Positions 887 through 45,047 of a stretch of 46,005 nt of DNA are shown here, piece by piece. The notes beneath the pieces were generated by a model. That model made no database searches. It saw only the letters and a program-made list of their open reading frames with translations, and was not told the DNA's origin. Numbering within the stretch: position 1 is the stretch's first letter; each line of letters opens with the position of its first letter. The position numbers and the translations under genes were made by a program. This DNA is from a virus, in IMG/VR virus record IMGVR_UViG_3300030104_000954, positions 1 through 46,005 of that record; one strand, written 5' to 3'.

Positions 887-922
887 AATTTGACCGCTGT
901 TTCCACACACGAGGAGCACCAC

Positions 923-947
923 TTCCCCGTGTGTTAGTGTACACTTT
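923..947 (-). promoter_or_regulatory. 25-bp direct repeat, copy A: candidate phage RNA polymerase promoter
   Basis: This 25-bp sequence is identical to bases 43011-43035 and in the same orientation. On the minus strand it contains CACTAACACACGGGG, ending in GGGGAA. It starts 2 bp after the large terminase stop codon, comparable to phiOR in T7, which lies after gene 19. A G-rich start after a 17-nt A/C/T-rich element fits the 23-bp layout of T7-family promoters. A 7-bp inverted repeat (905-911 with 928-934) straddles it. The promoter role is inference; the identity of the two copies is seen directly. Confidence 0.5.
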
Positions 948-948
948 G

Positions 949-2682
949 TTAAACCCATGTTGGAAGGGGCTTACCTTTAGCTTTACCTCGTGCCATTCTA
1001 CGCTGATTTAAGTCCATTCCTAAGACTAAATGATTAGCCTCAGCTTCTGGATTCTCTACCCAAGCTTCTAAGTGGTCTAGAAATTCTTGGTCTTTTCTGT
1101 CTCTTATTGCGGCAGTAGCTGAGATGGCGAGGGCATCGGTAAACCACTTGACCCCTTGGGCAAGAGCATCGATTCTGTCGTCATGTTTGACGGCACCTTT
1201 TTCCCTACACATTCTGGAGATTTGATATCCAAGCATATATTGGAATCTAGTTTCAGACGGCCTTTCAGCCCCCGAATCATAATCCCATTTAATAACCTTG
1301 GGGTCCACCACCAGCCTATGCTGATTAAAGACAGGCTCAAGGCTGTCAATAATACGATCTTCTTTCCTGACATTAGCTCTAGTTTCCTCTATGTTAATTG
1401 GTACATTTTTATTAATAGCATGTTTTCTAAATAACTCAGATATCATGCCATCACCAAAGTTACTTTCAATAAGTAAAGTTGATACATTATATTTTTTACA
1501 TCTAGCTAAAATAGATAATAAAGTTTTGTCTGAATAACCGTCTGTAGAGGCGTAGACTTCATGCAAATACATTATCCCATTCAACTGTGATAAGAAGCAC
1601 GCTACAGTCTCATCTGACCCCCTTCCAGAGGGGTCTACGCTGCATATAGTTTCAGAATAAGGTTGCCATTCCCCCTGAACTTGCATTGGACTATAATAAT
1701 AGTCTCCTGGAAGACCAACACAAGGTAACTCTTTTATAATGTTGTCTTTGCTGGAGCACCAGATGATGTTTTCTGGGGCTGTTTCGGGGTTGACTGGATT
1801 AATGATGAGATCGGCAAATTTGAGAGGAAACTTCTCCGCATCAGATAGAGAAGTGTCGAGCATAAACTGCAACATAAAGTTACTCCTACCCATAGCAGAT
1901 TCACGTTCCAGCAAATCGTCCTCACGGAATCTCGTATCCGTTGGTTCCCATGTAAGGTCATCTTGTTTATTTAAGTCCTCTTCTAGCTGTGGTGCGAGTA
2001 AACCATCATACATAGCCACCTTTCGAGGGTATCGAGCTGGCCATACAAAAGGTTTATAAGCACGTTCCCTGAGTTTGTTATAGACGGTAAAAGTAGTCTG
2101 AGGAGTTCCAAGGAACATGATACGAGAATCAGGTTTAGGAGTAAGAATAGACTCACACTCAGTAACCAATTGAAGTAATTTTTCACGTTGTAGTTCGGTC
2201 ATACTGTTGTTTGGTACCTCTACGTCATCTAAAACCATCAAGTCTGCACGACTTCCAGTTAACTGACCTGTGATACCAACGGATTTAACGCTAGGTGCTT
2301 GGTGGGGTGCTGCTGGTCCTACGTCAAAATTGACACGTGACCATCTTTGATCATCATTCTTAGGCTTAAGATGTGATAACCAGGGGACTTCAAGGATTAA
2401 TCTTTGACAAAATATTGAAAATGAGTCTGCTCTATCCTTAGAAGCAGATACAACCATGATTTTTCTGTCGGGATCGTTATATAAAGTCCATAGAACAAAA
2501 GCAGCAGTAATCCACGACTTACCTACACCACGGAAAGCTTGAATCTGTAATCTTTTTGGTCCATGTTGTAGGTATTCTGCTATACAAAGTTGTGCTCTAG
2601 TCGGCTGTGGTAGAGCTAAATGAGTCCACACAGCCGTTAAAAAGAACCTAAAATCACTTTGAAGTTGTTGTTGAATTTGCAT
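949..2682 (-). CDS. terL: Terminase large subunit (T7 gp19-like)
   Basis: This is the DNA-packaging motor: an N-terminal ATPase drives DNA into the prohead and a C-terminal nuclease cuts concatemers. Visible are Walker A FRGVGKS (residues 50-56), Walker B LMVLDD (about 148-153) followed by Glu, and a nuclease region with SVDPSGRGSDE (about 350), LLIESNFGDG and the late HDDRIDALAQG. The length, 577 residues, matches T7 gp19 (586). The start overlaps the end of talC by 29 nt; the small terminase is four genes upstream instead of adjacent as in T7. The N-terminal QIQQQLQSDFRFFL fits the family, supporting ATG 2682. Confidence 0.95.
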   Translation of the reverse strand: MQIQQQLQSDFRFFLTAVWTHLALPQPTRAQLCIAEYLQHGPKRLQIQAFRGVGKSWITAAFVLWTLYNDPDRKIMVVSASKDRADSFSIFCQRLILEVPWLSHLKPKNDDQRWSRVNFDVGPAAPHQAPSVKSVGITGQLTGSRADLMVLDDVEVPNNSMTELQREKLLQLVTECESILTPKPDSRIMFLGTPQTTFTVYNKLRERAYKPFVWPARYPRKVAMYDGLLAPQLEEDLNKQDDLTWEPTDTRFREDDLLERESAMGRSNFMLQFMLDTSLSDAEKFPLKFADLIINPVNPETAPENIIWCSSKDNIIKELPCVGLPGDYYYSPMQVQGEWQPYSETICSVDPSGRGSDETVACFLSQLNGIMYLHEVYASTDGYSDKTLLSILARCKKYNVSTLLIESNFGDGMISELFRKHAINKNVPINIEETRANVRKEDRIIDSLEPVFNQHRLVVDPKVIKWDYDSGAERPSETRFQYMLGYQISRMCREKGAVKHDDRIDALAQGVKWFTDALAISATAAIRDRKDQEFLDHLEAWVENPEAEANHLVLGMDLNQRRMARGKAKGKPLPTWV

Positions 2683-4423: not shown

Positions 4424-5116
4424 TTAAAAAGGGTTATACCAAGGCTTTTCCTTGGGTGGTTGTGTTGATTTGATATATGAAGCAATTGGAATAACATCAG
4501 AACACATACTATAGAAAGGGGATTTAGGATGAATCATAAAACCTTTCTGTTGTAACTCAGCACATTTAAGTGCCCGTACTAACTCATAATCCAATCGCAT
4601 CTTTTCTTCTTGTCTTGCTGCTATACGTCTACATTGTTTCAGACCCTTTTGGTCTAGAGGTATCATGAAGTTAACCTGAAAGCCCCAGTTCTCATTTTGA
4701 ACATAAGCTTCAGGGTCCATTGGTACCGTATGATTACCCATATAAAATGGGCTAAACGTCATAGTAGATCCGTTGCACGAAATGTTGGGACCATAATGCT
4801 GTCTACTGGGAGCACCGTTATTCTGGAACTGTACAGCTTGATTGGTAACATTTCCTGTTGCCGCAGCCACAGGGTTGGAGGTGTTTTGTACTTCTGGTTC
4901 ATTAGCTAAGGCAGGGTTTCCTATTGCGAGAAGACTGACAAGGACGTAGTAGTAGCGTTTGTTGTGATACTTCTGTCTATGTCTATTGTCTCTATGGTAG
5001 CTCCCGCTGCTCTGGTTGTTATCTCCAGAGTAAAGGGATCGCCAGCTGAAGTTACCGAGAATGTAGTTCCGCTTCCAGAAATATCTGCTGAAGGGGTTAT
5101 ATTTTCGCCAGTCCAT
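4424..5116 (-). CDS. Secreted or virion-associated conserved protein with an odd N-terminus
   Basis: The frame contains YVLVSLLAIGNPALA followed by NEPEV, a good signal-peptide core and cleavage site, then a Cys-containing domain: NISCNGSTMTFSPFY, ENWGFQVNFMIPL, QCRRIAARQEEKMRLDYE, ALKCAELQQKGF, SMCSD. This domain resembles a conserved protein I recall from marine cyanophages of several families; its function is unknown. The only start codon is ATG 5116, which puts some 53 basic, aromatic residues before the signal core and overlaps the preceding gene by 196 nt. No ATG, GTG or TTG lies near the signal core, so the true start is uncertain. Confidence 0.7.
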   Translation of the reverse strand: MDWRKYNPFSRYFWKRNYILGNFSWRSLYSGDNNQSSGSYHRDNRHRQKYHNKRYYYVLVSLLAIGNPALANEPEVQNTSNPVAAATGNVTNQAVQFQNNGAPSRQHYGPNISCNGSTMTFSPFYMGNHTVPMDPEAYVQNENWGFQVNFMIPLDQKGLKQCRRIAARQEEKMRLDYELVRALKCAELQQKGFMIHPKSPFYSMCSDVIPIASYIKSTQPPKEKPWYNPF

Positions 5117-9213: not shown

Positions 9214-12200
9214 TTATAGGGTTCCGAAGTCGAGTTGTAAGTTTGATCCTGTGATTGTTCCAGCTGTCACTGTACCTGTGAATGTAGGGCTTGCAAGAGG
9301 TGCTTTAGCATTTAAAGCTGTTGTAGTTGATGCAGCATAGTTAGAATCATCTCCTAGAGCTGCTGCTAACTCATTTAATGTATTTAATGTTCCTGGAGCA
9401 GAGTCTACTAACGCATCAATAGCTGCTTTCACAAACGCTGTGGTAGCAACCTTAGTTGTGTTGTCTCCTGTAGTCTGTGTTGCAGCAGTTGTAGCTGTGT
9501 TAATAGTTCCGTTTAAGTCACCACTGAATGTAGTAGCTGTAAATGTAGCACCATTTGTTATATTTTTACTATTTGCATTAAGATGTCCACCTAATTGAGG
9601 GGAAGAATCAGATACAATCGCTGCAATTCCTGGTGATATACCAGTCCATGAACTACCATTATAGTAATTTAAGGTGTTTCCTGAACTATTATACCAAAGA
9701 TCACCTTCAGAAGGGCTTCCTGGAGTAGAAGCTGCTATCTTATATTCATTTGCATAACGGTTTACGTCTGCAATTGAGCTGGATACAGTGTTAACATTAG
9801 CTATATTAGTACCTACATTGTTAACATTTCCAATAGCACCTGCTGTAGTGTTCACATTAGCTATTGAACCAGCTACAGTTGTGATATTAGCGTTGTTTGT
9901 TGCAGCTGTAGTGACATTTGATGCTATTCCAGCAACTGTGGTTACGTTTCCGCTAACTCCAGCAACTGTTGAGATGTTAGAATTGTTACCTGCAACTGTA
10001 TTTATATTAGTATTATTACCTGCTACTGTTGTTATGTTTGCATTATTATTAGCTGCTGTCGTTACGTTTGCAGAAATCCCCGCCACCGTTGTTACGTTGC
10101 TAGAAATACCAGCAACAGTATTCATATTGTTGACATTACTGGTAGTAGCCAGCGTATTCATGTCATTAACAACATCTGTTACAGCTAGGGTATTCATATC
10201 AGCTACTACGTCAGCTGTACCCAAGGTATTCAAGTCTGATACTACATCAGCTGTACCTAAGATAGCCATATCAGCTATACAATCTGTAGTAGCTAGTAAA
10301 GACATATCAGTTACTACAGCAGAAGCACCTAATGCTTGGATCTTGGCTATATTATCTGCACAAGTTTCTATACTATTACCTGTACCTGTAGAGGTAGCAG
10401 CAGTAATAAGTCCTAAATCTTCTGTAAATGTGATATTACCAGATACAATAGCTATATCATCTAGAACACCCTGAGAAGGTGTGACTAATTGATAAGATGT
10501 ACCATTATGTACCTTAAGCTCTTTATTAGAAGAACTATCAAACCACATATCACCAGCTGTTAAAGCACTAGAATCGGCTCTTGTAGTTGGTGCAGAAGTC
10601 CCTACTTGGTATAAATCAGCATAGTTATGAACACTACTTATATTACTTGAACAGTTATTAACATGAGTTATATTAGTGGCTGTCGTATTAACATTAGCAA
10701 TAGAACCCGCAACGGTATTCATATTGTTTACGTTTGACGTAGTAGCCAGTGTATTCATGTCTGATACAACATCAGCTGTACCTAACGTGTTCATATCTGC
10801 TACAACATCCGCTGTACCTAGAGTGTTTAAGTCTGCTACAACGTCAGCTGTACCTAGAGTATTCAAATCAGCTACAGCATCGGCTGTACCTAATCTACCT
10901 ATCTCTGTTGCTTTACCCGCTACAGCACCTATATCTGCTGCATCAGCAGCTACTGCATTAATGTTTGTCGCATTAGCAACAACCGCATTGATGTTTGTAG
11001 AGTTAGCATTTACAGCATTTATATTTGTAGCGTTACCAGCAACAGCAGTTACATTAGATGCGATACCAGCTACTGTATTTACATTAGCAATAGAACCTGC
11101 TACTGTATTTACATTGGCTATAGAGCCACCTGTAGTATTAACATTACCTATATTACTTGCAACTGTATTTACTTCAGTCGCTTTCGGGACTAATCTATGG
11201 AATGTATATGTATGATCTGTACCAGTTGTAATAACAAGCATACCAAATCCAGCTGGATAGGTTGTACTACCTGTTAAACCATTAATAATAACTGCATTAT
11301 TATTTATTCTACCGTTTGATATAGTATGTGAAGTTACCCCAGACCCTGTAGTAATAGCAGTTACAAGTTCTTTAATACTAACAACAGTACCAGCATCGTC
11401 TTTGATATCAGGGTTTGAGTTAGGAAAACTAACCTCATTATTAATTGCAACAAAACCACCTACGTCATCTACAACATTAGCAACTCGTGCATCAATTGCA
11501 GCTGTAGTTGCTATATAGTTATCGGAACTAGACCAAGTGGCTCCACTTGCTATAGTCTCAGAAGAATCTTGTCTAAAATATCTTCCGTCTGACGCAGATG
11601 TTGTAAAGAAGCTAACATCATTTGGAGTCGATGAAGCATGTTCACTGTTTGTTACAATTACTGCATCTGCTATTTTAGCTGCTGTTACTGCATCATTTTG
11701 TATAGCATTTGTATCTACTGCATTATCAGCTAGTTCAGAAGCACCTACTGAGTTTGCAGCTAGGTTATCTTCATTAACAACGATATCACTTGGAAGTGTA
11801 CCACTGTTAAGTTTAGCCATTGTCACAGCATTATTCTGAATCTTATCTGTGATTACAGAATCTGTTTGTAAAGCAGTTGCATCTATCGAAGCTGGTGCAT
11901 AGTGCTCAGTATCAAGAGAATCAGCAGCAATATGCTCAGAATCGACTGCATCGTTTTCAATTTTTGTACCATCAATACAATCTCCTGCCAGGTCAACCTT
12001 TTGGATTGTCCCGTTACTTATCATTGTAGATGTTACGGTACCTGTATCGCCAGTCGTTACTACCGTACCAGTGATATTAGGTAAGGTAATAGTCCGATCA
12101 GCTGTAGGGTCAGTAACAGTAAGCGTAGTCTCGTGAGCGTTATCTGTAGCCCCTTCAAATACAATTGTCTTATCTTCTAATAACCTTACATTACCATCAG

Positions 12201-15700: not shown

Positions 15701-16823
15701 CAATATCTTCTTGGTTTTCACTGAAGCGTTTATTAGCCCATTCATCATACTCATCTATAGAACCATATTGACGTGCATAATCATCTATTGGTTCTGAACG
15801 GGATTTACCCAATCCTTGTTGATACTCATCAATTGCCATGTCAACATGTGCATCTTCATCAAGGCGCATGTTAGTTTCAAAATCACGAGCAGCCGCTTCG
15901 TTACCTATTATATTAGCTTCATCTACAGTTTTACCTGCTATACGTGCTCGACCAGCTTCCCAGAAACCTTTGTAGATAGCACCAAGACCATGACCTACAT
16001 AGTTTAGTCCAGCTCCTGCTGTAATACTTTTAAGTCTAGCTGTCCAAGGATTATCCTCTGGTTTGATAGCTATCATATCCCCAATAATAGGGACTGCCCA
16101 AGGTATATTGTCTTGAGCTAGGTTCATTATATTAGCATGTTCAGAACTACTAGAGATTAAATCTGCTATAGCTCCTTCACTACCAATCTTAATCCCCTTT
16201 GGAATTAGCTTTAACATCCTGGAACCTTTGGCACCAACACCCATAGCTCTAGCAGCTGCTATACCACGGACACCTAGTTTAGCACCTCCAAGAGTTGCTC
16301 CACCTACTCCAGCTGTAGCCCAAGATAATAGACCAAACTCTACAAGTCCACGTCCAAACTTACCTACAGCTGTCTGAGGTGCTGCATCTTCCCAAAGTAC
16401 ATTTCCTTGTCCATCGGTTATTTCATCTGGTACATTTAACCAGTTACCATCGTTATGTACATATTCTTGATCAAAAGGATTTTGACTTTTATCTACCTCT
16501 TGTCCAAAAAGTTTACCTAAACCTGTTTTAAGTGTATCTCCTGTTAGTTCAGCAAAGCCACCGACACTTTCTACAGCATCAATAGCTCCACCACCTACAA
16601 CAGCAGACGCTTCATTTAATAAATTAAGTCCCTCTTCTCCTTCGCCTTCCATCATATCGGAAGGTGGACCAGAAATACCTTCTATATTTTCTTCTTCTGG
16701 TAGGTCAGGTGGGACAGAACTCTGTCCTTGTGCCTCATCCTCAGATAGGCTAAGAGATTGTTCCGCAAGCCCACTACCACCAGTACCATTAATAGCTAAT
16801 GATAAGCTTTGTTCTTCTTCCAT
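12702..16823 (-). CDS. Internal virion core protein (T7 gp16-like)
   Basis: 1373 residues, the largest gene, in the gp16 position between gp15 and the fibre; T7 gp16 has 1318. Gp16 is ejected and forms the trans-envelope channel. The N-terminus (MEEEQSLSLAINGTGGSGLA) is acidic and low-complexity, followed by hydrophobic Gly/Ala stretches (GRGLVEFGLLSWATAGVGGA). I see no transglycosylase motif where T7 gp16 has its lytic domain. The C-terminus is basic and helical. Assignment is by size, order and the general character of the C-terminal half. Confidence 0.85.
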   Translation of the reverse strand: MEEEQSLSLAINGTGGSGLAEQSLSLSEDEAQGQSSVPPDLPEEENIEGISGPPSDMMEGEGEEGLNLLNEASAVVGGGAIDAVESVGGFAELTGDTLKTGLGKLFGQEVDKSQNPFDQEYVHNDGNWLNVPDEITDGQGNVLWEDAAPQTAVGKFGRGLVEFGLLSWATAGVGGATLGGAKLGVRGIAAARAMGVGAKGSRMLKLIPKGIKIGSEGAIADLISSSSEHANIMNLAQDNIPWAVPIIGDMIAIKPEDNPWTARLKSITAGAGLNYVGHGLGAIYKGFWEAGRARIAGKTVDEANIIGNEAAARDFETNMRLDEDAHVDMAIDEYQQGLGKSRSEPIDDYARQYGSIDEYDEWANKRFSENQEDIDRAGQLFDEFHNRGREAGDDWLDEAGTSKLRLDEDNQRPLSPFVNDNQFAQNERSTYRAPENAVEQNLRESIESTKNGGDGSSYTPIASESYLRSMSRGDKNIRQYIEEVADDITRAAFKELDQRLPWKDVKLHILKQANDLLEVLEQGGDIAKNFEKHMATVTKEQKDGFGSRLYSDNGTVVTTISPTQKAANVLVMNALGKQIHGVATGAISIADGVPIGRQAEQIFDSMKVLLVENKKMGLMWGLDGKAQQQYVLAPSMKRMKEKSMEVITHQNDEYIGELRKLITQKRWQELEDLTELHALSGGKVRTLHHIHEYLRAVLRGGRMDDIHIKGRVRKELQGSFFNSVLSSFSTPVKAIGGTNMLAMLRPLQAFMGAGLRGKNREMYMAAAQMNNMGAAWGESLRMAKHNWELGVKRKGQTYQGKFDFDEDLQGWKGLKKHYERYGSNSEKLAYGALDKVVDMNTSPFVRYSVNAMGAGDAGARTMIGRQFMRQRSAAKAWDEATGNGAWIDSDKLKEMTLNGEDAFRNEIFKLDEHDMWVVSDKGASMAGDEAAMTRALQENFKGFELISNIPGMKAFFPFVRTGFNYLDVTFAHTPLNIFRDKYTDLRKLASDPNPNPILLQKYGIRPEDAAYELALMEGRMAMGTTVTGLVALLAMQGRVTGNMPPNKEDRDLWKLNGIQPRSFKVSDGTYVSYDKLEIFNTLFATTADVIGHSDILGEKATDEWMKKTVFMTSAVLVDQSMLAGVEDLARLMNPQSAEDLLLKSGTRYLRSHLPYAGLMGQIGDITDANEKEANNFWELLGKRDAYMKGKLPPKYDVLSEDRSGKPLRYGPEQPLWRALNSTAPIAVTHFEGDELKEALHMIQYNMPETLSTFRGEPLNSFEKSEMERYLAQSDLRKDLLKVIRSKTFKNALNEYKSRNLKESDGYLLKDQRFYRAVKQVFGRHKTLAMRQMMKDNPGLAARLRVKAMQKDMGRTANFDNQQLVDYLISSFPK

Positions 16824-26772: not shown

Positions 26773-26798
26773 ACCTAAGCCCCGTTCCATGCTTAGGT
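26773..26798 (-). promoter_or_regulatory. Hairpin before the DUF4278 ribosome site
   Basis: 8-bp perfect inverted repeat, ACCTAAGC with GCTTAGGT, around a 10-nt loop. It ends about 16 nt upstream of ATG 26757, just before the GAGGA ribosome site. No T-run follows, so it is more likely an mRNA-stability or translation element than a terminator. Confidence 0.45.
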
Positions 26799-26835
26799 TT
26801 CATGCGTCCATGAAATTGGATGAACGGACGTGATG

Positions 26836-27463: not shown

Positions 27464-28540
27464 TTATCCTATAGTTGGAGCCACAAGAGCTACTTCAGTT
27501 GTATCAACAGAAGCTAGGTCAAGTGGGAAGTTGTGAGCGTTACGCTCGTGCATAACTTCAAAGCCAAGGTTGGCTCTGTTAAGTACGTCAGCCCATGTAG
27601 GTACGACTTGTCCTCCAGCTGCTACGATGGATTGGTTGAAGTTGAATCCATTGAGATTAAAAGCCATAGTGGAGATTCCCATAGAGGTAAGCCATATGCA
27701 AGTGACGGGCCAAGCAGCCAGGAAGAAATGTAGACTCCTGCTATTGTTAAAGCTAGCATACTGGAAGATGAGTCTCCCAAAGTACCCATGAGCCGCAACA
27801 ATATTATACGTCTCTTCTTCTTGGCCAAATTTATATCCATAGTTCTGAGACTCAAGCCCAGTCGTTTCACGAATAAGTGAGGAAGTAACAAGACTTCCGT
27901 GCATAGCAGAGAATAAAGCTCCACCGAATACCCCTGCAACACCGAGCATATGGAACGGATGCATAAGGATATTGTGTTCGGCTTGGAAAACGAACATGAA
28001 ATTGAAAGTCCCGCTAATACCAAGAGGCATACCATCAGAGAAACTCCCCTGTCCAAAAGGATAAACGAGAAAAACTGAGAAGGCTGCTGCCACTGGTGCG
28101 GAATAAGCAACACAAATCCATGGGCGCATTCCTAGTCGATAACTAAGTTCCCATTGTCGTCCCATGTAACATGCAATGCCGATGAGAAAGTGGAACACAA
28201 TAAGTTGATATGGTCCTCCGTTATACAACCACTCATCGAGGGTTGCAGCTTCCCAGATTGGGTAGAAGTGAAGACCGATTGCGTTAGATGACGGGACGAT
28301 TGCCCCTGAGATGATGTTGTTTCCATAGAGTAAGGCTCCTGAGACAGGCTCACGAATACCATCTATGTCAACTGGAGGTGCAGCGACAAACGCAATCAAG
28401 AATGCTGTAGCTGCGGTTAAAAGTGCAGGGATCATAAGTACCCCAAACCACCCCACATAGAGGCGGTTGTTTGTACTCGTAACCCAGTCACATAAACTAT
28501 CCCAGTTGCTATTTGGTTTTGTTAGTGTGGCTGTTGTCAT
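27464..28540 (-). CDS. psbA: Photosystem II D1 protein
   Basis: 358 residues, full length. D1 turns over fast in light, and phage copies keep photosystem II running while the host shuts down. The Mn4CaO5 and C-terminal ligands are present: [18 protein letters not shown] holds the equivalents of H332, E333, H337, D342 and A344. The five-helix core segments are intact ([41 protein letters not shown]-type helix at [14 protein letters not shown]). The C-terminal extension [14 protein letters not shown] would be cleaved after LDLA. It follows hli after 15 bp. Confidence 0.98.
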
Positions 28541-34472: not shown

Positions 34473-35842
34473 TCTTGACAATCACATTGAGGTTCTTTTA
34501 TAAGCCCCTCTAGGTAATCGTTGACATCTTCTTCCTCTAGTGCCGCATACACATTAGATTTATCTTGAACGTCTGCCATTACCTGAAGGCTGTAGTATAA
34601 GGAGGTTTGAGGTGAAGCTAACCACTCTTCCACGAACGCATTGTCGTAGGTTACTACATCCGACCAAGAGTTGAATGAATATCCGTGAAGAAGTCCTGTG
34701 TTATTTAATAATGTCATGAAGCCATCTGCTACACGCTTGTATGCGTCCCAGCCGACCTCACTGGCAATCTCTACATTGCCATAGTCATATGATTGCACAC
34801 CAAAGGTACCGCTGTCACGGTCCAAAGTTCTTGCAATCGGTGGAGCTATTTCTGGGGTTGCGGTAAACCCATCTAAGTCTTTACTCCTGTATGAACAGGA
34901 TGCAGTAGGAGCAATAGCAAAAGCTCTTACCATATTATTTTGTACAGCAACCTGAGCTGCTTTATGTACTCCAAGTTTGATTTCATAGGCTAGTTTCTCT
35001 GCGTCAGTGACAATAGCACTGCCACTATTTACTACACCTAATGCTCTACCAAACTGTTCATAAGTTATACCTTCTCTTCTTAGAAGGTTAGCTAGTCCAA
35101 GGAATCCAAGTCCGACTTGGCGATCCGTTTCGGCTGGGAGGTATTCGCCAGTTGATCCAACACCTGTGTTCCCATGGAGTTTGCACAACTCGGACATACC
35201 TGTAGCGCAAGCGTCCTGAATGTCCCTGACACGACAGGCTGACAAATTAATATGTTGGAGGAGACATGTTCCTCGTGAGGGCAGGTAAACCTCAAGACAT
35301 ACGTTGCCGTAGATCCGTTGGCCTGACTGGTCGTATCTGATTTTATTGAGCCAGATATCTCCTGATTTGATTCCATAAATTAATGCATCCCGTGTGAGCG
35401 AGTCAGTATTTTGCCACTTTTCGTAGTCAAGATTGACACACCTTTTGATCCACGGGAGTTCGTGTCTAGGTGTTGTAATAAAATCAATGATATCGGCATG
35501 GTCAATGTCACAGTGAGCAACAATAGCCCCGTTCTTATAGACCCCGCCACGTCTGAGTGTTTCATTTAATACTGAGTATATTTTTGCAAAGCTGACTGGG
35601 CCGCTAGCAACCAAGCCTTTGCCATTTTCAGTTCCTTTTGATCGTAACTTGGATAAGTGGATTGCAACTCCTGCTCCATATCTGAGAGCATGTGAAGCAA
35701 AACGCCAAGACGCTTCGATGCCATTTTCTCCCTCCATCGAGTCTTCAACCACGAATACAGTGCAGCTGACAGGGAGACGGCCATCAGGATTATCAATCCA
35801 ATTTTGTACTCGGCCTGTACGAGCGATAACATTTGCAGTCAT
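34469..35842 (-). CDS. Ribonucleotide reductase large subunit, short class I type
   Basis: 457 residues, far shorter than E. coli NrdA (761) and without an ATP-cone. Redox and catalytic residues are visible: C27 in PVSCTVF, N180-C182-E184 in GNVCLE (thiyl Cys), C193 as probable partner, a Tyr pair at 416-417 (SLYYS) like the NrdA radical-transfer Tyr pair, and a C-terminal CDC (453-455). The Tyr pair and the adjacent small subunit argue for class I, although cyanopodovirus enzymes like this were first labelled class II. Reduces host RNA-derived ribonucleotides to deoxyribonucleotides. Confidence 0.92.
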   Translation of the reverse strand: MTANVIARTGRVQNWIDNPDGRLPVSCTVFVVEDSMEGENGIEASWRFASHALRYGAGVAIHLSKLRSKGTENGKGLVASGPVSFAKIYSVLNETLRRGGVYKNGAIVAHCDIDHADIIDFITTPRHELPWIKRCVNLDYEKWQNTDSLTRDALIYGIKSGDIWLNKIRYDQSGQRIYGNVCLEVYLPSRGTCLLQHINLSACRVRDIQDACATGMSELCKLHGNTGVGSTGEYLPAETDRQVGLGFLGLANLLRREGITYEQFGRALGVVNSGSAIVTDAEKLAYEIKLGVHKAAQVAVQNNMVRAFAIAPTASCSYRSKDLDGFTATPEIAPPIARTLDRDSGTFGVQSYDYGNVEIASEVGWDAYKRVADGFMTLLNNTGLLHGYSFNSWSDVVTYDNAFVEEWLASPQTSLYYSLQVMADVQDKSNVYAALEEEDVNDYLEGLIKEPQCDCQE

Positions 35843-41514: not shown

Positions 41515-43844
41515 TAACAGAAAAAATAAGTGGATTCTTGTACAACTGTGGGATCTAATGTCCCGACAATTGGCGGTGGTTCTGATGCTCTGATTGTTTC
41601 ACTAAATCTTGTGAGCCAACAGTCTTGCGTGAAAATTTGTGTGTAGGTTTCTCGCACAAGTCTATTGAGTGTTCCCATGTCTCCTGCTCTAGTAAGCACC
41701 GAGTCATGGATGACTGTGAATGGTTCATTGAACTGTTGAAAGGAACAGTGCAAGATGGATGCATCGAGCGAATGAATAAAGTTAGGTGCTGTACTAGATT
41801 TGTGACGTATAGGACAAGGTGTACCTGACCCTTTATCAAGACTAATACTAACATTACCTAACAATTGTAATCTAACTCTTTGTATATTTACTTTATCTCT
41901 ACGCTGGTTGACAGTAAATCCTGATGGAGTTACCCATTCAACCTCAGTAGCACCATCTCTGATGTACTGACCTACGTGCTGCTTAATCCAACGCATAACT
42001 TGCATTGGTCCAGGCACGATAGCATCCATGCTTTCATAGACAGCATTGACAACCTGTGTTAGCTCATCTTTAGTTGGATCAATTCCTTGTTCCTTTAAAG
42101 ATTGCTTGATGTACTTACGTGACGAATCCTTAGTTGCATTGTAGGGGATTGTCATGACTGTACGTTTACAGGTGCCACGTGTCATCCAAGAGTGCATACG
42201 CTCAGGTAAATACTTCTTGGCTTCATTGGCAACAGCCTTGTATGCATCGCTAGGTATATCAGCTGGGCATACATTGACAAGACTAGCAGTTGACTGATCT
42301 TTTGCAAGTCCAGCCAACACCTGTAACCCACTACATGTAGCGTCTACCGCTACCATGAGTCCAGTTGTTGTCTTATCTTTCTTAATAATGCAGTGATAAT
42401 ATTCGTCACAAGCCGCCATGAATTGCCACGGCTCGTCAGCTGCTTCCCACTTAGGGATTGATCCCTCTGGATCTAAGGCAACTTTCGTAATTAACTCATG
42501 ATTATCTAGTGACCAAGCTATACGCTCATCCATAGTAGCCTTATCTAGACCATATGTTGTAGCAACTTGGATAGCTAACCAATCTTCTGCATCTTGGGTG
42601 ACTGGTGATTCATCAGCGAAGCGGATCATAGCTTTACCGAAGTCAGTGTCTTGAGGTGTGAGAAATGCTTGAATGGGATATGCTCTACCTCTGTAGTCAA
42701 AAGACCAACATAAATAAAAGACATCCTCTTTGAATTTATCAGCAGTTTCTAACTGTGCCCTCGTTCTTACTGATCTCTTGAAATTTAAACAGTCAGCATT
42801 ATGTGCGTTACGTGTCTCTTTCTTCCACTTCCTATGTGCCTCCTTATCAGTTTCTATATCAGGAGGTGGAGGTGGTTTATACGCAGGTACTATAGGGATA
42901 AATTTATCTACCTTTATCTCTTTATCTTTACAGTAGTGTGCCACGTTCAGTACGTGGTTGTTGACACGATACCTTACCTTCTGAAGTTTATTCAAAAACT
43001 TAAGAGGAAGTTCCCCGTGTGTTAGTGTACACTTTCCACGGCGTGTTAGTTCATGCCCCTTCATAAGGGCATTATAGTAGTAGCCACCTAGCTTTTCATT
43101 ACTCCAGTCGTTAGGCTCGGTAAGCATAGGCCAAGGGATACCACTGAACATCTCAGCTTGTTTAATAAGATCATTTCTAATCTCATTAAATGATTCAGTA
43201 GGCTCAACAATCTTAGTTGTTTTACGTGGAGTATTCTTATTAACAATAGAGAACCAACCAGTAGTCTCCATTACAGCTAATAAACCCCACTGCCCTAACT
43301 GTACACGATAATCATGTCTCCATTTAGGCCACTCAATATCACAGTGTTTGAATACTGTTTGAGTAGCTCTGATCTTTTGCTGAGTACCACTTGATCCATG
43401 AAAATGTTCCTTCTCAATGAAGTTCATAAGTCCAGGATGATTTTCTTTATACCATCTAAACTTACATTCATTCTCAAGTGCATAGCCAATACCATCGCAT
43501 ACTGAGGTTAGTGTATCAGCGTCACGTTTAGTGCTAAACACTTTATCAAACGTAACCTTTAATGCAATAGCTGCAATAGCTATAGGTTCTAAGCTATCAA
43601 GATAAACATGGAAGGCTTTGTAATACCTACCACCTTTACCAGATGCTATGTTAGCTCTAGTATCATCTATGTACTTGATAACTAAAGGGAGTGCGCTGGT
43701 TATAGAAGCCGTCCCGTACACACTCGCCGAGGAGTAGCTCTTCTCGCTCAGCTTGTTCAAGGAGTCGTGCAATTTCATCCTCCCACATGAGATCGCTTCC
43801 CTCTCCAACTGGCACTGCATCGAAATCTGTAAGGGTGTCGCCAT
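41514..43844 (-). CDS. Single-subunit RNA polymerase (T7 gp1-like)
   Basis: 776 residues (T7: 883). Motif A VAVDATCSGLQ (D501), motif B CKRTVMTIPYNATKD (K560, Y568), motif C VIHDSVL (D714) and the NFIHSLDASIL His (H691) are intact, as is FDYRGRAYP (382-390). The residue after Y568 is Asn, where T7 has Gly640. N-terminal MQCQLEREAISCGRMKLHDS matches the T7 RxxQLExE start, supporting ATG 43844 despite a 182-nt overlap with the upstream frame. Transcribes phage middle and late genes. Contains repeat copy B at codons 271-278. Confidence 0.96.
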   Translation of the reverse strand: MATPLQISMQCQLEREAISCGRMKLHDSLNKLSEKSYSSASVYGTASITSALPLVIKYIDDTRANIASGKGGRYYKAFHVYLDSLEPIAIAAIALKVTFDKVFSTKRDADTLTSVCDGIGYALENECKFRWYKENHPGLMNFIEKEHFHGSSGTQQKIRATQTVFKHCDIEWPKWRHDYRVQLGQWGLLAVMETTGWFSIVNKNTPRKTTKIVEPTESFNEIRNDLIKQAEMFSGIPWPMLTEPNDWSNEKLGGYYYNALMKGHELTRRGKCTLTHGELPLKFLNKLQKVRYRVNNHVLNVAHYCKDKEIKVDKFIPIVPAYKPPPPPDIETDKEAHRKWKKETRNAHNADCLNFKRSVRTRAQLETADKFKEDVFYLCWSFDYRGRAYPIQAFLTPQDTDFGKAMIRFADESPVTQDAEDWLAIQVATTYGLDKATMDERIAWSLDNHELITKVALDPEGSIPKWEAADEPWQFMAACDEYYHCIIKKDKTTTGLMVAVDATCSGLQVLAGLAKDQSTASLVNVCPADIPSDAYKAVANEAKKYLPERMHSWMTRGTCKRTVMTIPYNATKDSSRKYIKQSLKEQGIDPTKDELTQVVNAVYESMDAIVPGPMQVMRWIKQHVGQYIRDGATEVEWVTPSGFTVNQRRDKVNIQRVRLQLLGNVSISLDKGSGTPCPIRHKSSTAPNFIHSLDASILHCSFQQFNEPFTVIHDSVLTRAGDMGTLNRLVRETYTQIFTQDCWLTRFSETIRASEPPPIVGTLDPTVVQESTYFFC
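43011..43035 (-). promoter_or_regulatory. 25-bp direct repeat, copy B: candidate phage RNA polymerase promoter in the RNAP gene
   Basis: Identical to bases 923-947, same orientation, and coding for KCTLTHGE (residues 271-278 of the RNAP). On the minus strand the 23 bases ending GGGGAA fit the -17 to +6 span of T7-type promoters, with a proposed start at the G of 43016. Transcripts from here would cross the rest of the RNAP gene into SSB and the replication genes. The identity is seen; the promoter role is inferred. Confidence 0.45.
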
Positions 43845-44766: not shown

Positions 44767-45047
44767 TAAGCTGCCTCAACAGAGCTTTTAGTCTTTCTCT
44801 GCTTTGACGTAGTGCTTGTGGCTTTAACGTCCTGCAATCCGATTTCCTTTTTGAGTGATGCTGCCAATTCGGCATTATGTTTGAAGAGTCCACTTACGAA
44901 TTTGATAATGGTTTTTTCCTCGACCCCAGTAAAGCGGACTGTATCCTCATAGTCTTGTGAGATACATAGTCCATTGTGTTCAGCACAGTAATACATTCCA
45001 GGATCTTTCATGTAATACTCGTGGGTGGTTTCAAAAGATAAAGTCAT
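44766..45047 (-). CDS. Early hypothetical protein (93 aa)
   Basis: Overlaps the upstream gene by ATGA. Product: MTLSFETTHEYYMKDPGMYY, CAEHNGLCISQDYEDTVRF, a helix KTIIKFVSGLFKHNAELAAS and a basic Lys/Thr/Ser tail (KQRKTKSSVEAA). No recognised family; the basic tail may bind nucleic acid. Confidence 0.65.
   Translation of the reverse strand: MTLSFETTHEYYMKDPGMYYCAEHNGLCISQDYEDTVRFTGVEEKTIIKFVSGLFKHNAELAASLKKEIGLQDVKATSTTSKQRKTKSSVEAA

Follow-up and report, generated by a model that had tools for sequence, protein, structure and literature searches.

Genomic context of the repeat pair

The window, by which we mean the whole stretch of 46,005 bases analysed here, is the record of a single virus contig whose nearest relatives are the Tangaroavirus cyanopodoviruses P-SSP10, NATL2A-133, P-SCSP-R27W and 9515-10a. 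Genes for a T7-type RNA polymerase and for the large terminase (terL) lie on its minus strand, and a 25-bp repeat occurs within the former and just past the latter (Table 1), as a preliminary description of the sequence had noted. Both copies read TTCCCCGTGTGTTAGTGTACACTTT on the plus strand and AAAGTGTACACTAACACACGGGGAA on the coding (minus) strand, so that the identity and shared orientation claimed earlier hold without a mismatch. The 25-mer has two matches in the window at 0 mismatches; no third copy occurs at 1-3 mismatches in the window or its 46,005-base record, nor does the 19-nt core yield one in the window at up to 4 mismatches. It is the sole exact same-strand repeat of at least 18 bp in the window, the runner-up measuring 17 bp, and it was found in 0 of 100 dinucleotide shuffles of the window. 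The repeat is far beyond chance, as had been supposed.

Table 1. Coordinates of the repeat copies and associated features in the window.
Feature	Position	Strand	Remarks
Predicted promoter, copy 1	43011..43035	minus	nt 810-834 of RNA polymerase ORF; putative span -15 to +10; Syn5 counterpart at 4929, gene 15
Predicted promoter, copy 2	923..947	minus	2 nt past terL stop; putative span -15 to +10; Syn5 counterpart at 44797, after gene 60 (terL)
Putative start +1 (A), copy 1	43020	minus	alignment to Syn5 GTAA followed by GCAAG; 748/-10 covariation register
Putative start +1 (A), copy 2	932	minus	Syn5 alignment; 748/-10 register; 5' hairpin stem from +1/+2
Predicted 5'-terminal RNA hairpin of copy-2 transcript	907..932	minus	ACACGGGGA-AGUGGUGC-UCCUCGUGU; covariation
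Conserved stretch after hairpin	888..906	minus	GUGGAAACAGCGGUCAA in window, GUGUGGAUUGCGGUGA in Syn5 group
T7-type single-subunit RNA polymerase, 776 aa	41514..43844	minus	Pfam RNA_pol
Codon 658 (Arg) of RNA polymerase	41871..41873	minus	aligned to T7 N748, specificity loop; covaries with promoter -10/-11
Gene for the large terminase (terL); copy 2 follows directly	949..2682	minus	Pfam terminase T7 RNase H-like domain

Elsewhere in the window, a Glutamine-II (formerly Downstream-peptide) riboswitch is recognized by Rfam at 26774-26829 on the minus strand (51.5 bits), between the ORF at 27464-28540, which by synteny with relatives is probably psbA, and the small ORFs that follow. Coding repeats spaced 30 nt run through 9788-11410 in a large minus-strand ORF that is probably tail-fibre-like.

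Conservation of the two sites

A search for the repeat at the same places in close relatives, proposed in the preliminary description, returned three exact pairs, in P-SSP10, NATL2A-133 and P-SCSP-R27W, and two co-varied ones: in 9515-10a and P-SSP6, GTGTACAC is changed to GTCTACAC (coding strand) in both distant copies, with one extra change in copy 2 only. When cyanopodovirus genomes or contigs were compared systematically, a genome-specific repeat was present at both sites in 33 of 33, and an enlarged set with more metagenomic contigs comprised 39 distinct pairs. Family-wide, the sites lie at about +810 to +885 within the RNA polymerase gene and directly past the large-terminase stop. The Syn5 pair, ATTGGGCACCCGTAAGCAAG at both counterpart positions (Table 1), contains the Syn5 RNAP promoter that was identified experimentally and occurs only twice in that genome (PMC3950665).

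The two copies of a genome resemble each other far more than they resemble those of other genomes. Across the 39 genomes, own copies agree at 14.2 of the 15 positions upstream of the start (in the register adopted below), vs. 6.8 for foreign copies, and the maximum over 20,000 permuted pairings was 8.5 of 15; in 39/39, no foreign second copy matches a genome's first copy better than its own does. This matching is limited to about -15 to +6, the flanks scoring about 0.2. The own pairing keeps its advantage in a clade of 8 close relatives, where 4 of 40,320 permutations do as well. The copies disagree at -11 or -10 in five of the 39 genomes. Among more distant marine T7-like contigs, which are partial and encode RNAPs about 28% identical, the pair was not found.

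Synonymous variation within the genus amounts to 1 over the 9 codons of copy 1; since 346 of 768 windows are equally low, the codons of the RNAP gene show no constraint at this sample size, and the test is not significant. Two irregular copies deserve mention. Among isolate genomes a clear third copy is confined to S-CBP2, which has a promoter-like sequence at 16389-16407 in an annotated ribonucleotide reductase gene, with 1 mismatch to its terL-side copy. In P-SSP6, at about 46138, the RNAP-gene copy reads GGGGG where relatives have GGGG and the RNAP frame is broken, probably by a sequencing error.

Covariation between polymerase and repeat

Since every RNAP gene contains a repeat copy of its own, enzyme and putative promoter can be compared for any RNAP contig. 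We performed a blind mutual-information scan over 121 non-redundant RNAPs (700 columns by 15 promoter positions, leaving out the residues encoded by the site itself), in which we relied solely on redundancy filtering, comparisons of sister pairs and control stretches to allow for relatedness. The top pairs, in T7 numbering, were 756/-8, 240/-5, 748/-10, 748/-11, 754/-9, 206/-4, 94/-15, 231/-5, 661/-3 and 99/-14. Seven of the nine distinct columns fall in one of three T7 elements, namely the specificity loop, the intercalating hairpin and the AT-rich-recognition loop (hypergeometric P 2.7e-7), the last two being delimited as is usual for T7 RNAP, and the covarying promoter regions are those expected for each T7 contact element. 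A control scan over 76 other 15-nt stretches of the gene recovered at most 4 contact columns, and none of the 76 did as well.

In T7 RNAP, whose specificity loop spans residues 739-770, N748 contacts -10 and -11, R756 contacts -9 and Q758 contacts -8 (PMC5937735). The loop is two residues shorter here, and therefore columns 754 and 756 may structurally be 756 and 758. The residue equivalent to 748 follows -11/-10: E or D occurs with CC, K with GG or GT, R with NG, Q with CA or TC, and N with GA, the last being the combination of T7 itself. In independent close pairs (>85% identical), the residue class at 748 had changed in 6 of 6 when -11/-10 differed and in 0 of 39 when they were the same (Fisher P 1.2e-7). 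The nearest relatives repeat the pattern: R658 accompanies G at -10 in the window, P-SSP10, NATL2A-133 and R27W, and Q658 accompanies C at -10 of both copies in 9515-10a and P-SSP6. The compensating polymerase changes for which the preliminary description had called are thus present across the 121 RNAPs and, at the 748-equivalent, in sister pairs.

A predicted hairpin at the 5' end of the copy-2 transcript

On the terL side, positions 888-932 of the minus strand form a conserved leader composed of a covarying hairpin, a constant loop and a conserved tail. The P-SSP7 group has the loop AAGGGUGGA, whereas sequences of the Syn5 and window groups have AGUGGUGC. Among nine sequences of the Syn5/window group, 97.3% of cells are paired and double changes occur in 6 of 9 pairs; the covariation score is 0.525 vs. 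0.310 (0 of 500 shuffles). S-SRP01 lacks the copy-2 hairpin, and some copy-1 transcripts could also fold a short 5' hairpin, less regularly. A search of Rfam did not return the hairpin or leader, the sole match in the window being the unrelated riboswitch described above. The hairpin leader of T7 phi10 mRNA has been suggested to protect the 5' end, and by analogy the copy-2 hairpin may protect its own RNA in the same way.

Transcription start and alternative functions

The preliminary description had placed +1 in a T7-style register within GGGG, at about 928 and 43016. T7-family enzymes do favour G starts, and GGGAGA-like runs follow the site in many relatives, but we regard this register as unlikely and have set it aside. 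The Syn5 start directly follows GTAA, and alignment of both window sites to Syn5 puts +1 four bases upstream of GGGG. Residue 748 faces -10/-11 as in T7 only with +1 at A932/A43020, whereas the GGGG register would set it opposite -14/-15. The conserved hairpin, too, begins at +1/+2 of the Syn5 register: a stem of at least 6 bp begins at +2 in 24 of 26 distinct copy-2 sequences, and already at +1 in 12. On these three grounds, transcription probably starts at A932/A43020, about 4 nt upstream of the GGGG.

Could the repeat serve something other than transcription? In Syn5 and P-SSP7, copy 2 is close to the right genome end, a region of terminal repeats and packaging sites, which might suggest a recombination, integration or packaging/concatemer-resolution signal. 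We consider this very improbable, as copy 1 lies within the RNAP gene, the repeat changes together with the RNAP contact residues, and promoter function has been proven for the Syn5 pair. An exact search of the genome_contigs collection (84,980 species) with the core 20-mer gave 0 matches; it thus revealed no core shared with a bacterial genome, and hence no host attachment site for an integrase, and that candidate was dropped. Even less credible is that a regulator of phage or host origin binds here, for instance the MarR-like protein of some relatives: the repeat contains the palindrome GTGTACAC, but the palindrome is not conserved in relatives, the pair is present in phages without an annotated MarR-like regulator (Syn5, NATL2A-133), and the repeat covaries with the RNAP. 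It is conceivable, if somewhat doubtful, that copy 2 doubles as an origin of replication in the manner of T7 phiOR, with the promoter priming replication. Its place just after terL and the conserved leader would suit an origin; the leader is, however, explained equally well as a 5' mRNA stabilizer, and an origin would be compatible with promoter function rather than an alternative to it.

The repeat is thus very probably the promoter, in exactly two copies, for the T7-type RNA polymerase that the phage itself encodes, because its position, its conservation in relatives, the proven case of Syn5 and the compensating polymerase changes all point this way; the central proposal of the preliminary description is thereby strengthened. 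What we find is the arrangement of a Syn5-type promoter: exactly two near-identical copies per genome, lying in gene direction about 0.8 kb into the RNAP gene and just after terL, with promoter changes matched by changes of RNAP contact residues. The small number of promoters expected for such polymerases agrees with the two copies seen here and with the two in Syn5.

A possible transcription scheme and its implications

How might the two promoters be used? The scheme that follows, covering promoter activity in the window phage, the exact start, the units of transcription and what the hairpin does, is one that we infer. The host polymerase would first transcribe the early region and the phage polymerase gene. 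The phage enzyme would then bind AAAGTGTACACTAAC (-15 to -1) via its AT-rich-recognition loop, its specificity loop (including R658) and its intercalating hairpin, and start at the A directly after it. From copy 1, within the enzyme's own gene, the replication and structural genes would be read as one very long unit, which fits because processivity over 30,000 nt has been reported for Syn5 RNAP (PMC3950665). From copy 2, the enzyme may read the next ORF and then run off the right end or, alternatively, continue across a concatemer junction back to the early genes and the polymerase gene; this RNA would begin with the hairpin, probably shielding its 5' end. The genes after terL are talC in P-SSP7, thyX in Syn5, P60 and S-TIP37, and an ORF of unknown function in the window, and copy 2 probably serves these genes and the right end.

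Beyond this one phage, we think it probable that cyanopodovirus RNAP genes generally hold their cognate promoter in codons ~270-295, near-identical to one copy after terL, that enzyme and promoter co-evolve by a readable code (748-equivalent vs. -11/-10), and that the terL-side transcript carries a conserved, covarying 5' hairpin not represented in Rfam. If so, the promoter could be learned from the RNAP gene alone, and a short metagenomic contig bearing that gene would be enough. The two-promoter layout is already known for Syn5, and what appears to be new is that this layout is general and that the recognition code can be read: in the literature covered, which excludes Zhu et al. 2013 JBC (Syn5), we found no description of such pairs in other cyanophages. 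Prediction of the cognate promoter has been called the critical limiting factor for using new phage RNA polymerases (PMC11475235). The promoters of many unstudied polymerases would become readable from their genes, because relatives keep their own version at both sites and the polymerase changes in step. Each promoter could be taken from the RNAP gene and checked by means of the copy after terL, which would yield predicted orthogonal pairs of enzyme and promoter by the dozen. Transcription in abundant ocean viruses could be mapped explicitly, and the family would offer a natural series in which to follow joint shifts of specificity in an enzyme and the only two sites it has.

Comparison with known systems

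Within the same enzyme class, promoters have been predicted for the RNAPs of P-SSP7 and S-CBP42 (PMC11475235). The paired site that we find in P-SSP7 is CAAACCCCTACGTAT followed by ACAGGG, whereas the published prediction begins AAAATTCTTCAAGTT. The predicted sequence, AAAATTCTTCAAGTTTACAA, overlaps with a repeat found at P-SSP7 positions 35716, 36292 and 37196, within tail-fibre genes, and it is therefore probably not the promoter. KP34 has a weak promoter, ACTTTGGACATCCGTCAAGT, inside its RNAP gene, whose likeness to that of Syn5 its authors noted (PMC6834552). The window copy likewise lies inside the RNAP gene, but the main KP34 promoters are unrelated and located elsewhere.

With the phi promoters of T7 (TAATACGACTCACTATA) the window phage shares the contact scheme, with the specificity loop on about -11 to -8, the AT-rich loop on -15 to -13 and the intercalating hairpin on -5, and phiOR, like copy 2, lies near the right end. 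The sequence is not shared: the T7 consensus TAATACGACTCACTATAGGGAGA bears only weak similarity to the repeat and does not count as a match. T7 has about 15 scattered promoters in place of two, and its start is G, where that of the window phage is probably A.

The closest counterpart is Syn5, whose promoters (ATTGGGCACCCGTAA; PMC3950665) likewise number two per genome, at the same place in the RNAP gene and just after terL. The promoter letters are almost all different, the RNAPs are only 36% identical, and the 748-equivalent is K in Syn5 and R in the window phage. Yet both systems have 15 bp upstream of the start, and in both the terL-side transcript would carry a 5' hairpin of similar form whose loop is AGUGGUGC.
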